Origin: Acidobacteriota bacterium | Lineage (GTDB): Bacteria > Acidobacteriota > Thermoanaerobaculia > Gp7-AA8 | Direction of reading: 5' to 3' | DNA length: 38,557 nt | Assembly: GCA_025463165.1 (NCBI GenBank) | Contig: JAOBAU010000350.1 | Coordinates: 1-38,557, forward strand | In this document: positions 1,341 to 13,845 of the stretch, in pieces | Layout: every line of letters begins with the position of its first letter | Numbering within the stretch: position 1 is the first letter of the stretch | The notes under the pieces: model-generated | What the model was told of the DNA's origin: nothing | The model's input: the letters and a program-made list of their open reading frames with translations, nothing else | The model's database searches: none | Translations under genes and position numbers: made by a program

Positions 1341-1501
1341 GTTCGAGACGGTGCTCGGGAAGCCGGTTTAAGACCGGCGCGGCCCCCGCCACTGTACCCG
1401 GAGACGACTCATACGCGGCCCCAGCGAGGCCCCCACTGCATTGTGCGGGAAGGGAGTATGAGAAGGATGACCCGGAAGCCAGGAGACCGACCGTCTCGGA
1501 C
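1341..1501 (+). ncRNA. Cobalamin (B12) riboswitch
   Basis: The canonical B12 box GAAGCCAGGAGACC lies at 1475-1488. It is enclosed by a perfect 7-bp P1 helix: GAGACGG at 1345-1351 pairs with CCGTCTC at 1491-1497. Upstream is a GCCGGT/ACCGGC hairpin (1362-1367 with 1373-1378) followed by the conserved CCCCGCCACTG segment (1383-1393). The element ends about 30 bases before a BtuB-like receptor gene. This is the usual arrangement: cobalamin binding sequesters the ribosome-binding site or ends transcription, so uptake is off when B12 is plentiful. It accounts for most of the 330-base gap between the flanking genes. The outer boundaries are approximate. Confidence 0.93.
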
Positions 1502-1533
1502 ACAACGCATGCACGCTTCGGAGGGAAGCCGTC

Positions 1534-3363
1534 GTGAAAACTGTCCTGTCATTTCTCCTTTTTCTTTTTCTTACCGCTGTTACCGCATTCGCGCAGACGA
1601 GTGCTGACATCGTCGTCACCGCCTCCGCGATTCCGGAGACGGTCGAGACGACGCCGGCCGCCGTCACCGTCATCACGCACAAGCAGATCGAAGAACGAGG
1701 CTCCACCGATCTCGCCGACGTGCTGCGCGAAGTGCCCGGCCTCTCGCTCAGCCGCACCGGGTCCGCAGGCCGCGCAACGTCACTCTTCACGCGCGGCGCG
1801 AACTCGACGCACACGCTCGTGCTCTGGAACGGCATCCAGCTCAACAATCCGTACTTCTCCGGCTTCGACTGGGGCCAGTTCTCGACCGCCGGCGTCGAAC
1901 AGGTCGAAGTCGTGCGCGGTCCGTACTCCGCGCTGTACGGATCGGACGCCGTCGCCGGCGTAGTCAACGTGTTGACTTCACCGACCGCGAGCTACTTTCA
2001 CGGCAGTGTCGAAGGTGGCAGCAAAGGCCTGCGCAACGCCGAACTGTCGGGCGCTTACGCCGGCACGACCGGCAAAGTCAGCGGCGCGTGGGGACATCGT
2101 GAAGATGATGGCTTCGCGCCCAACGACGACATCCGTCAAAACAGCGGGAATCTCTACGCGCAGTGGATGCCCGGCGCCAACTTCTCACTCGGCGCATCCG
2201 CTCGCCGCAACGCCTACGACCTCGGCATCCCGGTGAACACGAACTTCTCCGGCACCGAGCTCGTCCCGAGTCCGAATCGCCGCGGCAGCGGCAACGATCG
2301 GCAGATTGCGATTCCGATCACGCAGTCGATCGGCCGCTTCTCGTACGACGTCGCGCTCTCCGACAACAAGCGCCGCGATGACTTCCAGGATCCCGACGAT
2401 CCGTACGGTCTCACCGAATCGCGCACCGATTCGAAAGTGCGCCGCGCACGCCTTGTGACGCGCACCGTGACCGGCATCGGCACGATCGTCCTCGGCGGCG
2501 AATACGCGCGCGCGGTCGTCGATGACGCGTCGACCTACGGCGTCAACCTCGCCGGCAACCGCCGCACGGAGCGCTCGTTCTTTGTCGAGGATCGGCTGTC
2601 GCATGAGACCGAAAGCGGCGCGCACTTCGAGCTGTCGCTCGGCGCACGTCGCGACGACTTCGACACGTTCGGCAGCGAGACCTCGCCGCGCGTCGCCATC
2701 GCACTCGTGCAGAACGGCACGAAGTGGCGCGCTGCATACGGCCAGGCATTTCGCGCGCCCTCAGTCGGCGAACTCTACTTCCCGTTCTCCGGCAACCGCG
2801 ACCTCAATGCAGAACACAGCCGCAGCTTCGAGTTCGGTTTCGATCGCGGCCTCGGCACCGCATCGCAGCTGTCGCTGACGTACTTCAACAGCAGCTATCG
2901 CGACCTGATCATCTTCGATCCGGCAACGTTCATCTTCTCCAACATCGGCCGCGCGAAGAGCGACGGAATCGAAGCCGGCTTCTCGCGGCGCATCGCCAAT
3001 CAGTTCTACACCTCGCTCAGCTACACGTGGCTGCACAAAGACGAAGACTCATCGACCGGACTCCGTCTGGCGCGGCGTCCGGAGCACAGCGGATCGCTGG
3101 CTTTTGGATACACGCGCGGCTCGATCGACACGAACGTCTCCGTGATCCGCAGCGGCGCACGCAGCGACATCCTGCCGATCGCTCCCTACTCGCGCACCGA
3201 AAACCGCGGATACACGACCATCGACGTCAATCTGCAGTGGCGTGCGGCGCGCTTCGCACCGTATGTGCGGATCGAGAATTTGCGCGACACGCGATACGAG
3301 GAAGTGCTCGGATATCCGTCGCCGGGACGCCGCACGATCGTCGGCCTGCGCTTCGGAACGTAG
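1534..3363 (+). CDS. btuB: TonB-dependent outer-membrane receptor, BtuB-like cobalamin transporter
   Basis: A 609-residue protein starting at GTG behind GAGGG. A clear signal peptide (hydrophobic run to about residue 20, ending AFAQ) is followed by a TonB-box-like DIVVTAS. The plug domain (about 35-150) shows the BtuB-type RGANSTHTLVLWNGIQLN and VEVVRGPYSALYGSDAVAGV motifs. The rest is a 22-strand-barrel-like region ending in RDTRYEEVLGYPSPGRRTI and a terminal aromatic-rich strand, as in BtuB. It should carry cobalamin or a related corrinoid across the outer membrane using TonB energy. The upstream cobalamin riboswitch is strong independent support for this substrate. No BtuFCD transporter is present here, so inner-membrane transport must be encoded elsewhere. 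Confidence 0.93.
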   Translation: MKTVLSFLLFLFLTAVTAFAQTSADIVVTASAIPETVETTPAAVTVITHKQIEERGSTDLADVLREVPGLSLSRTGSAGRATSLFTRGANSTHTLVLWNGIQLNNPYFSGFDWGQFSTAGVEQVEVVRGPYSALYGSDAVAGVVNVLTSPTASYFHGSVEGGSKGLRNAELSGAYAGTTGKVSGAWGHREDDGFAPNDDIRQNSGNLYAQWMPGANFSLGASARRNAYDLGIPVNTNFSGTELVPSPNRRGSGNDRQIAIPITQSIGRFSYDVALSDNKRRDDFQDPDDPYGLTESRTDSKVRRARLVTRTVTGIGTIVLGGEYARAVVDDASTYGVNLAGNRRTERSFFVEDRLSHETESGAHFELSLGARRDDFDTFGSETSPRVAIALVQNGTKWRAAYGQAFRAPSVGELYFPFSGNRDLNAEHSRSFEFGFDRGLGTASQLSLTYFNSSYRDLIIFDPATFIFSNIGRAKSDGIEAGFSRRIANQFYTSLSYTWLHKDEDSSTGLRLARRPEHSGSLAFGYTRGSIDTNVSVIRSGARSDILPIAPYSRTENRGYTTIDVNLQWRAARFAPYVRIENLRDTRYEEVLGYPSPGRRTIVGLRFGT

Positions 3364-10573: not shown

Positions 10574-11380
10574 TTACTGCGGCGTGATCAACGAGACGCG
10601 CTGCGTGGCGTTGTTCGTCACGCTGATGAACGACCAGTAGCGCAGTCCCGCCGTGACCGGCTCGATCTCCACACGCACGTTGCCGCGTCCGGTGAAATTC
10701 GCCGTCAGGTTCGGCAGCTCCGCGTATGCCGGGTTGTCGCTGAACGCCGTCGCACTCGGAATCGTTGCCACGCCGCCGGCCGGTGTCAGCGAAAGCGTTT
10801 GCTCGAAGAGCTTCGTGTTGTCGGCGGAGAACATCCGGACGATGACATCGCCGCGACCGGTCGGTGAGCTCGCGCCGTAGATGCGAAGCTGCGCGCGCGT
10901 CGCGGTGCTCGTCGGAACTTCGAGGAGCTCGGTCGTCGTCGAGGAGAAGTCGCGCTCGCGCACGACCGGCAGCTCGACGAAATCCGCAGGCTGCGACCAC
11001 TCGCGCAAACGAAGCGCGAAACTGATCGTCGCGGCGTGCTCTTTGTCGACGTAGAGGAAGACGCCGGGATTCGCCGGATTCTGATAGTCGCGGCTCGGAC
11101 GAATGTGAAATGTCTGCCCGCTCGCCAGCGCAGTCGGCTCGATGCCCTCGCCGGTTCTCTGAAACGCGAGCGCCTGCGAAGCGCCGCCGTTCCGGCCTGT
11201 GAACTCCGTCTCCCACAGCGAGCCGTTCGCGCCCGGCACGATCTGGATCGAGTACATCGGCACGAGGAGTTGTTCGTACTTCGCGCGGTCGAGCTCGATG
11301 TTGACCGGCTCAACGGCGAACGCGGCAAGCGACAGGAAAAACGCGACGACCACTGCGACGGCGTTGCGCATGACAGGCAT
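10574..11380 (-). CDS. Secreted protein of unknown function
   Basis: A 268-residue protein with a clear signal peptide (MPVMRN, then a hydrophobic run ending AAFAVEP). No family was recognised. The mature part is rich in Thr, Ser, Val and Asn, with alternating hydrophobic residues, suggesting an all-beta fold such as two Ig-like or jelly-roll domains. No catalytic motif is evident. The start at 11380 is favoured by GGGGAAG six bases upstream; an internal Met at 11371 would also keep the signal. It runs divergently from the MutS-like gene, with only 17 bases between start codons. It is convergent with the siroheme decarboxylase, whose stop is 3 bases away. Confidence 0.75.
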   Translation of the reverse strand: MPVMRNAVAVVVAFFLSLAAFAVEPVNIELDRAKYEQLLVPMYSIQIVPGANGSLWETEFTGRNGGASQALAFQRTGEGIEPTALASGQTFHIRPSRDYQNPANPGVFLYVDKEHAATISFALRLREWSQPADFVELPVVRERDFSSTTTELLEVPTSTATRAQLRIYGASSPTGRGDVIVRMFSADNTKLFEQTLSLTPAGGVATIPSATAFSDNPAYAELPNLTANFTGRGNVRVEIEPVTAGLRYWSFISVTNNATQRVSLITPQ

Positions 11381-11397: not shown

Positions 11398-12930
11398 GTG
11401 CAGCCGTTCGGACAGCGCAAAGTCGCCGAGCGCGACATGGACGACATCGCTCTCTACCACCGTGCGCGCATCGAGCGCGATGGCGGAGATGCGGTCGATG
11501 AGCGGACGTGGTCCGATCTCGATCTCGACCTCGTGTTCGCCGAGGTCGATCGATGTGAGAGCGCGGTGGGACAGCAGTTTCTGTATCACCTGCTGCGCAC
11601 GCCAACGCTCGATACGAAACGGCTCGACGACTTCGACGAGCTCGCCGATCGGCTCGCGCGCGACGACCAAGCGCGCACCGCGATCGCGAAGTTGCTCGAG
11701 CGTCTCAATCGCGCGAAAGCGTTCTATCTGCCGAATCTTTTTCTGCTGCCGCTGCCGTGGCGTCCACGGTTTCGGTGGCTCTTTCCGCTGCTGACGTTTC
11801 TCGCGGTCGCCAGCGTCGCCGGTATCTTCATCGTGCCGCAAATGCTGTTCGTCGCCATCGCGATCTTTGCCGTGAACATCGGCATCGAGATGACGTTTCG
11901 CCGCCGCATCTACGAATACGTGCGGCCGCTGCGCGTGCTCGATTCGCTCCTCCGTACCGCGCGCGCCGTCGCGCAGATCCCCGTCGTCCGCGAACGTTTC
12001 CCGCAACTCGCCGCTGACGTCGCCGCGCTGCGTCCGCTCACGCGCTCGACCGTCTGGCTGGCGCTCGAGCGCGAAGGATTCGACGATCCGACGACGATCC
12101 TCTGGCAGTACCTCAACATGTTCTTCCTCGCCGACGTGAATGCGTTCGCGGCGAGCTTCGCGGCGCTCGAAGAAAAGCGCGACGTCGTGGAACGAGTGTT
12201 CAACGCCGTCGGCACGCTCGATGCCGCGATCTCCGTCGCATCATTTCGCGAGGGCGCCGAATTCTGGAGCCGGCCGCTCTTCACGCCGCGTGCGAAAGCG
12301 CTCGAAGCGATCGACGCCGCACATCCGATCATCGCCGAGCCGGTGCCGAACTCGATTCACATCGAACAGCGCAGTGTCCTCGTGACCGGCTCGAACATGT
12401 CGGGCAAAACGACGTTTCTGCGCACCATTGGCGTGAACGCCCTGCTCGCGCAATCGATCGCTACGACGCTGACGCGCGGCTGGCGCGCGCCGCTGCTCCG
12501 CGTGCAAAGCTCGATCGGACGCGGCGACGATCTGTCGCTCGGCAAGAGCTATTACCTCGCCGAAGTGGAGCGCGTCGCCACGCTCGTGCGCGACAGCGGC
12601 GGCGACATCCAGCATCTCTTCATCATCGACGAGATCTTCCGCGGCACGAACACGACCGAGCGGATCGCGGCCTCGCGCGGCGTGCTCGAATATCTGAATC
12701 GCGGCGACGATCTCGTGTTCGTCGCCACGCACGACGTGGAACTCATCGAGCTCCTCGGCGACGCGTACGAATCGCATCACTTCCGCGAGTTGATCGAAGG
12801 CGACGAGCTGCGATTCGACTACCGCATCCAGCCCGGCCGTTCGTCGACGCGGAACGCCATCGCGCTGCTGGAGCTGATGAAGTTCCCGCAGGAGATCGTG
12901 GAAGCAGCGAAGAAAACTCTGAGCCTGTAG
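11398..12930 (+). CDS. Membrane-anchored MutS-like ATPase
   Basis: A 510-residue protein with a MutS domain V ATPase in the C-terminal 200 residues. The Walker A is GSNMSGKTTFLR (about 330-341), there is a long spacer with DDLSLGKSYYLAEV, the Walker B is IIDEIFRGTNTTER (about 411-424), and the H-loop is ATHD. The mismatch-recognition and connector domains of MutS1 are absent. Instead there is a short helical N-terminus and two adjacent membrane segments (about 128-147 and 149-166). It therefore belongs to the poorly studied group of membrane-bound MutS-like ATPases and is unlikely to do ordinary mismatch repair. The start is GTG at 11398; ATG at 11437 is an alternative, and neither has a strong ribosome-binding site. 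Confidence 0.88.
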   Translation: MQPFGQRKVAERDMDDIALYHRARIERDGGDAVDERTWSDLDLDLVFAEVDRCESAVGQQFLYHLLRTPTLDTKRLDDFDELADRLARDDQARTAIAKLLERLNRAKAFYLPNLFLLPLPWRPRFRWLFPLLTFLAVASVAGIFIVPQMLFVAIAIFAVNIGIEMTFRRRIYEYVRPLRVLDSLLRTARAVAQIPVVRERFPQLAADVAALRPLTRSTVWLALEREGFDDPTTILWQYLNMFFLADVNAFAASFAALEEKRDVVERVFNAVGTLDAAISVASFREGAEFWSRPLFTPRAKALEAIDAAHPIIAEPVPNSIHIEQRSVLVTGSNMSGKTTFLRTIGVNALLAQSIATTLTRGWRAPLLRVQSSIGRGDDLSLGKSYYLAEVERVATLVRDSGGDIQHLFIIDEIFRGTNTTERIAASRGVLEYLNRGDDLVFVATHDVELIELLGDAYESHHFRELIEGDELRFDYRIQPGRSSTRNAIALLELMKFPQEIVEAAKKTLSL

Positions 12931-12990: not shown

Positions 12991-13845
12991 ATGACTGATT
13001 TTGCGTTGCCCGCGGCGGCTGAGGCCGGTCACCGCAATCGGAACTTCGGACTCGTGGCGTTCGGCATCGTCCAGCTCGTCCTTGGCGCCGCGACCGGCGT
13101 GCTCGCGCTCGCCGTCAGCGCGTCTGACTCGCCGGCGCCGGAGCTCGCTTCGAACATCGTCCTCTTCGGAACGGCCACCCTCTACTTCTTCGCCGCCGGA
13201 ATCGGCTCGATTCGCGGCCGCCGCTGGGCGCGCGCACTGAGCGTCGCGGTCACCGCGATCTGGCTCGCGATCGGAACCATCGCCACGCTCGTGACGCTGA
13301 CGGTCGGCCCGGGCTCCGCATCACTGCTGCGCTACCTCGTCGCCGGCATCATCGTGCCGCTCGCACTGCTTCTCTTCTATCGCTCGCGCGACGTCGGTGT
13401 CACCTGCGATCTCCGCGATCCCGAACCGCGCTGGACCGATCGCGTCCCGCTGGCGGTGCTCGCCGTCGTCCTCGTGATGGCGTTCAGCTCCGTCACGCTC
13501 CTCGCAAACCTCGGCAACGCATCCGCGCAATTGCCAGCCGCGTTGCACGGCGCGCCGGCCGGCATCGCCGTCTTCGCGATGGCGCTGCTGTTCGCATATC
13601 TCGCGCTGCAGCTCTATCTGCTGAAGCAGTCGGCGTGGTGGACGACGATGATGCTGCACGTCCTCGGCGCGATCGCCGCGGTGGCATCGCTGATGACCGG
13701 CAGCGGCGTGAGACTCGGCGCGCTGTGGGCGATCATGATCGCCGCGTGGCTCGCGTACGCCGTCTTCCTCGTGCGGATTCGGCGCTACTTCATCGGCGTG
13801 CTGCCGCGCACGCGCGCGGCAGACACGCGACGAAACGCTATCTGA
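12991..13845 (+). CDS. Polytopic membrane protein of unknown function
   Basis: 284 residues with about seven to eight predicted membrane helices, at about 20-42, 52-72, 80-103, 110-130, 150-170, 185-210, 217-235 and 240-258. The helices are separated by short Arg-rich cytoplasmic loops such as RGRRWARA. No transporter or enzyme motif was recognised. The start is well supported by GGAGG at the right distance. It follows the MutS-like ATPase by 60 bases on the same strand. Its 3' end overlaps the convergent parvulin gene by 8 bases (13838-13845). Confidence 0.7.
   Translation: MTDFALPAAAEAGHRNRNFGLVAFGIVQLVLGAATGVLALAVSASDSPAPELASNIVLFGTATLYFFAAGIGSIRGRRWARALSVAVTAIWLAIGTIATLVTLTVGPGSASLLRYLVAGIIVPLALLLFYRSRDVGVTCDLRDPEPRWTDRVPLAVLAVVLVMAFSSVTLLANLGNASAQLPAALHGAPAGIAVFAMALLFAYLALQLYLLKQSAWWTTMMLHVLGAIAAVASLMTGSGVRLGALWAIMIAAWLAYAVFLVRIRRYFIGVLPRTRAADTRRNAI

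Follow-up and report, generated by a model that had tools for sequence, protein, structure and literature searches.

A MutS-type ATPase from an Acidobacteriota bacterium carries a conserved hydrophobic hairpin and belongs to a separate, putatively membrane-working MutS family

An open reading frame in a 38,557-nucleotide stretch of contig JAOBAU010000350.1 of an Acidobacteriota bacterium (the whole stretch is hereafter called the window) encodes a MutS-type ATPase with a conserved hydrophobic hairpin inside its predicted lever and clamp region. We read the protein as a membrane-embedded, dimeric MutS-family ATPase that may deliver its closing motion to a membrane-associated substrate rather than serve mismatch repair, a reading to which we give roughly even odds (about 0.5). 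The family to which it belongs probably acts on a target within the cell membrane, despite the mismatch repair name it bears in databases. This family and its sister family are called C1 and C2, labels coined in this analysis, and both may bear numbers in Ogata et al. 2011.

Gene, ATPase motifs and alignments

The frame is open over its whole length, as originally predicted. Its start codon may be GTG 11398 or ATG 11437, the latter leaving more room from the divergent gene. The features of the region are as follows.

10577-11380, minus strand: divergent gene for a secreted protein, no Pfam family
11398-12930, plus strand: gene for the C1-type, putatively membrane-embedded MutS ATPase, 510 aa (open reading frame, Pfam, alignment)
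11497-11712, plus strand: first half of the MutS core (domain III-like), residues 34-105; hhalign to E. coli MutS up to 347
11779-11826, plus strand: predicted membrane helix 1 (AlphaFold helix 128-143, hydropathy, alignment)
11842-11898, plus strand: predicted membrane helix 2, residues 149-167, the N-terminal half of a 43-residue helix (149-191) that continues as lever
11875-11877, plus strand: N160, where predicted membrane helix 2 reaches its inner end; a conserved polar position (93% polar across the 71 rows)
12376-12921, plus strand: MutS_V ATPase domain, residues 327-508 (Pfam)
12388-12414, plus strand: Walker A GSNMSGKTT, residues 331-339
12517-12567, plus strand: signature-like segment 374-390; its invariant S384 aligns with E. 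coli MutS S668
12628-12663, plus strand: Walker B DEIFRGTNTTER, residues 411-422
12730-12732, plus strand: invariant H445, aligned with E. coli MutS H728
12991-13845, plus strand: downstream gene for a polytopic membrane protein, in which some eight hydrophobic stretches can be seen by eye

A scan of genome contigs with the window protein alone returned zero relatives, and a scan with five aligned relatives returned at least 587, of which 80 loci were kept. Alignment A2 comprised the window gene and 70 of these loci (71 rows); the ten left out were nine fragmentary loci and one (L058) fused to a neighbouring frame. A3 (39 of the 71 A2 rows), A4 (19 rows) and the tree set (74 rows) were hand-picked for spread. 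One locus (L182) proved to be a C1 gene and was left out of the C2 set.

The Pfam domain MutS_V matched the protein with E 1.2e-25 (91 bits, cut-off 30.2). MutS_III reached E 0.71 only, under its own cut-off, and MutS domains I, II and IV had no Pfam match at E up to 1. The claims that the protein is a MutS-type ATPase and that it lacks the mismatch-binding domain were thus both borne out. All 71 rows were identical at N333, G336, K337, S384, D411, E412, G416, T417, T444, H445 and D446, and these invariant residues aligned with the ATPase motifs of MutS1 (hhalign against E. coli MutS). With Walker A, Walker B, the signature serine and the switch histidine all in place, the protein is a member of the MutS ATPase superfamily. 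PF00005 (ABC_tran) gave no match at E up to 1, which places the protein outside the ABC transporters.

Predicted fold and hydrophobic hairpin

The conventional MutS domain names and borders were used for the fold comparison. The AlphaFold2 model built from A2 (pLDDT 93.6, pTM 0.92) matched best, among solved structures, Taq MutS (1nne_B; Z 33.4, rmsd 4.4, 418 residues aligned). The non-ATPase half modelled alone (pLDDT 92.7) aligned with MutS 269-603 at Z 12-14. Of 986 chains, 111 reached Z >= 8 and 115 reached Z >= 5; Foldseek alone gave no match to this half at E 0.001 or better. A profile without the ATPase, made from A3, still matched the Taq MutS core 270-331 with E about 1e-11. A MutS core/lever/ATPase fold is thus a confident and well-supported prediction.

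In hhalign comparison with the MutS1 profile, residues 26-105 aligned with E. coli MutS 262-347, and the part from residue about 245 to the C-terminal end aligned with E. coli MutS 524 onwards. The segment between residues 105 and about 245 holds the hairpin, which starts, in sequence, only about 20 residues past the core helices, a point against the mechanism proposed below. This segment corresponds to the MutS levers and clamp, by an alignment with MutS1 that is of low confidence there. Because the hairpin lies within the segment that builds lever and clamp, it would be part of the machine and not an add-on at one end. The original prediction of a membrane-anchored ATPase holds in that the hairpin is joined to the ATPase, and is refined in that the hairpin is not a terminal tether.

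The hairpin spans residues about 127-167. Kyte-Doolittle hydropathy over 19 residues peaks there at 2.48 (from residue 128) and 2.44 (from residues 140-141), and 10 of 5000 shuffled versions of the protein gave an equally strong hydrophobic pair. The MutS1 and MutS2 proteins of the same genome peaked at only 1.52. A hydrophobic stretch of 57-62 residues was kept at the hairpin position in 71 of the 71 aligned relatives; a separate second peak was scored in only some of the rows, since the peak finder passes over stretches next to a peak already found. The two adjacent membrane helices claimed earlier were thus recovered at the sequence level. Lysine and arginine were frequent ahead of the hairpin (122, 124, 130) and behind it (166, 168-170), where a K/R-rich stretch (166-170) follows N160, and were low in the turn (145-148). 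This pattern fits the positive-inside rule with entry from the cytoplasm and both ends inside. The conservation of the hairpin is well supported, and from the sequences we infer that it inserts into the membrane in cells.

The hydrophobic pair might instead be buried in a soluble fold, leaving the protein outside the membrane. A further moderately hydrophobic helix (231-243) in the soluble part would agree with this. However, every face of the helix is non-polar over residues 149-159: across the 71 rows, columns 149-157 contained zero D, E, K, R, H, N or Q, and in columns 149-159 their share stayed within 2%. In C1, the longest run of fully non-polar columns was 9 (71 rows; 11 in a 14-row subsample), compared with 7 each in MutS1 (14 rows) and MutS2 (9 rows). 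In addition, many relatives have extra N-terminal hydrophobic helices. Burial in a soluble fold is hence highly improbable.

Phylogenetic position and comparison with known MutS proteins

The tree was inferred from the ATPase region only, with the hairpin columns left out. C1 (30 rows) formed one side of a 100/94 branch and C2 (19 rows) one side of a 100/99 branch; a 100/98 branch separated C1 plus C2 from MutS1, MutS2, KamC and a group of clostridial 640-aa proteins. The window gene, which has full-length similarity to C1, a hairpin of the family's length and a place in the C1 clade, is a C1 member. The phylogenetic check named in the original prediction thus placed it in the joint clade, outside MutS1, MutS2 and KamC. 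Scores on the NCBIfam models were 126.4 bits against a cut-off of 480 and 99.8 against 641.7 for MutS1, 77.1 against 400 for MutS2, and 93.4 against 300 for KamC (NF052383); as all lie under the cut-offs, no named equivalog fits. No paper in the literature searched, with most subscription papers outside its scope, names a membrane MutS, and searches on KamC gave nothing useful. MutS7, MutS8 and other subfamilies of Ogata et al. 2011 are prokaryotic or viral and several are uncharacterised, according to PMC12292046 and PMC5698495.

C2 shares with C1 a central hydrophobic segment ahead of the MutS_V ATPase. It differs in its motif (DLD[IVL]FG, against 'TWxDLD...DRTxSxxGQQxLY' in C1), in often having an extra N-terminal hydrophobic pair and in a distribution independent of C1. 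The N-terminal halves of the two families aligned with hhalign E 1.4e-27, which, together with the joint clade, fits a hairpin that arose once, ahead of the divergence of C1 and C2. The window genome (5.1 Mb, 471 contigs) has four MutS_V genes, namely MutS1, MutS2, the window gene and a C2 gene (L004; G000:C448, minus strand, 1495-3279). The last, a second membrane-type MutS of 595 aa with N-terminal and central hydrophobic segments, likewise falls, as C2 does, under no named model. Three clostridial MutS-type proteins of 631-641 aa (L143, L153, L155), shorter than MutS2, lay in a starred clade adjoining clostridial MutS2.

MutS1 (E. coli K-12 b2733, Taq MutS) shares with C1 the ATPase domain with all its motifs and the core/lever fold (hhalign E 9.4e-40, starting at E. 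coli MutS residue 262). Unlike MutS1, C1 lacks mismatch domain I, connector II and MutS1-type clamp motifs, has the putative membrane hairpin and forms its own clade. The clamp motifs of MutS1 (YNKVFGYYIEVTK and RKQTLxNAERYIT in the A5 consensus), which we take to contact DNA, were absent from the 71-row A2 consensus, in a region that aligns with MutS1 only at low confidence. By domains, model score, clade and clamp motifs alike, the window protein falls outside MutS1. MutS2 resembles C1 in lacking domains I and II and in its core and ATPase (structure match to the model at Z about 28). Unlike MutS2, C1 has the hairpin and its chain stops right after domain V; with no extension past the ATPase domain, it has neither KOW nor SMR. 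KamC, the lysine 5,6-aminomutase reactivase ATPase, is of similar size to C1 and has a MutS-type ATPase with, going by its NCBIfam name, a non-DNA role, but it groups with MutS2 in the tree (97/89). In the one copy of KamC read, flanking genes resemble, by eye, a lysine 5,6-aminomutase subunit.

Proposed mechanism

In MutS proteins, the ATPase lies at the opposite end from lever and clamp and the dimer closes on ATP, as described in PMC10897456 and PMC12231599. By analogy, two C1 subunits would dimerise through their ATPase domains, and each would insert two helices from the cytoplasm into the membrane, with a turn of about four residues connecting them outside. Membrane helix 2 would continue unbroken as the lever towards the core. 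Binding of ATP would close the ATPase dimer, and the levers would pass this closing motion to four membrane helices instead of a DNA clamp, the long helix 149-191 carrying it into the membrane. The homodimer (taken over from MutS), the topology of the hairpin and the direction of force are what we infer. Our guess at the substrate is a membrane-associated protein complex, and the most likely work would be to pull apart, open or reset it, much as MutS2 acts on collided ribosomes. MutS2, which splits collided ribosomes according to PMC10897456 and is thus a MutS ATPase with a non-DNA target, and KamC may serve as precedents.

If the membrane reading is true, evolution has made a membrane machine out of the DNA-clamping MutS fold, and the membrane would provide a third kind of MutS target after DNA and the ribosome. 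More tentatively, it is possible that, early in the evolution of MutS, levers that had gripped DNA were remodelled into membrane helices, and that C1 and C2 descend from this change as two ancient families of MutS motors working on the membrane. In them, an ABC-superfamily ATPase dimer would power conformational work within the membrane by a route of the MutS type, distinct from that of ABC transporters. According to PMC12292046, several MutS subfamilies have yet to be characterised.

Gene neighbourhood

The C1 gene is self-contained, with no linked partner. Clustering (blastp) of the ORFs around the 80 loci revealed no recurrent linked gene, the largest non-query cluster covering 12 loci at scattered offsets. 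A Pfam scan took 136 of the 148 immediate neighbours, those of <= 600 aa; Response_reg (6) and MerR_2 (4) were the top counts, the latter fitting a gene beside C1 in four Mucilaginibacter loci, and no neighbour beyond such common regulators recurred among the 136. No neighbour was common to the window gene and its four closest relatives.

The original prediction pointed to a neighbouring polytopic membrane protein gene and a divergent gene for a secreted protein. Both genes exist, but the suggested link to the ATPase gene did not hold. The polytopic membrane protein belongs to no Pfam family, and its gene was found in 9 of 60 relatives, not beside C1. Full-length C1 was found in 5 of the 60 relatives (own genome included), and the two coincided in the window's own genome only, so that the co-occurrence check came out negative. 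The secreted-protein family occurred in 17 of the 60 relatives, with up to 12 matches per genome, and was limited among them to the window's family and order. Two other readings were considered and rejected: in a search for defence systems, PADLOC gave weak P-loop matches only (E 1.8e-4 and worse), and PHROGs, searched for a phage origin, matched the ATPase half only.

DNA handling at the membrane had been one of two earlier interpretations, the other being a wholly different substrate. The hairpin would then serve as an anchor, and the process might be DNA uptake, conjugation, replication or segregation. Classical MutS proteins all clamp DNA, and C1 occurs on plasmids as well, 5 of the 22 matching plasmid records covering >= 80% of the C1 query; the copies read from Staphylococcus (three, on plasmids) and Ruminococcus had the hairpin. 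Genes resembling impB/mucB-type polymerases lay, by eye, near 4 of the 80 loci, and the Pfam family IMS was found in 1 of the 136 adjacent genes. However, the lack of domains I and II and of the MutS1 clamp motifs in the C1 consensus argues against such a role, as does the lack of a recurrent DNA-processing neighbour in the clustering of 80 loci and among the 136 adjacent genes. The interpretation thus found no support, and we consider it rather unlikely. The four polymerase-like genes, each within five genes of C1 in Clostridium (L079, L099), Hymenobacter (L083) and a Bacillota MAG (L037), may be there by chance.

Alternatively, C1 might be a reactivase like KamC, stripping a damaged cofactor from a specific membrane-bound enzyme or resetting it. 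KamC shows that a MutS-type ATPase can bear the name of a reactivase, C1 has some score on the KamC model, and cobalamin-synthesis-like genes (by eye) follow C1 in one locus (L195). Against this, the score is far under the KamC cut-off, KamC groups with MutS2, and no fixed enzyme neighbour was found among the 136 adjacent genes; this alternative appears unlikely.

Distribution

C1 is scattered across bacteria: the 80 kept loci, out of at least 587, fell in at least ten phyla, comprising Bacteroidota (41), Bacillota (20), Gemmatimonadota, Spirochaetota and Myxococcota (3 each), Acidobacteriota (2), and Calditrichota, Planctomycetota, Fermentibacterota, Pseudomonadota and Actinomycetota (1 each), with 3 loci having no assigned phylum. 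Many of these loci come from MAGs, so the phyla with a single record are uncertain. Annotated copies are named 'DNA mismatch repair protein MutS' or 'MutS family DNA mismatch repair protein'. Many bacteria thus carry C1-type genes under the former name, and repair gene counts and mutator analyses based on such records can be wrong.

Genomes were counted with N-half profiles, a match having to score about 100 bits and cover most of the profile; weaker matches to the sister family or MutS1 were left out. In the window's phylum, 13 of 297 genomes held C1; the figures were 6 of 118 for the phylum of a Pedobacter and 2 of 119 for that of Clostridium punense. C2 was present in 95, 31 and 15 of the same genomes, respectively. 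C1 is thus scattered and rare within a phylum, and C2 is far commoner in the window's phylum. These counts bear on whether C1 and C2 form an obligate heterodimer, like MSH2-MSH6. Although C2 was found in 10 of 12 named genomes, these had been picked for holding C1. In the window's phylum, C2 occurred in 3 of the 13 C1 genomes, where 4.2 were expected (Fisher P 0.56), and the numbers were 1 of 5 in the Pedobacter's phylum and 0 of 1 in the Clostridium punense's phylum, with the sample-centre genomes left out. Co-occurrence no higher than expected argues against an obligate pair, which is very unlikely.

A relative was encoded in 5 of 16 pattern-matched viral stretches, and two of the matches in phage records that were looked at adjoin apparent host genes. 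In the record of Staphylococcus phage PhiSepi-HH3 (L191; MT880872.1, 130067-143497), the end carries tsaD, tsaB, ilvD and ilvB together with C1 and looks like host DNA inside a phage record. In the locus with cobalamin-synthesis-like genes (MT835495.1, 32817-52289), C1 lies between these and phage-like genes, the only such case noticed.
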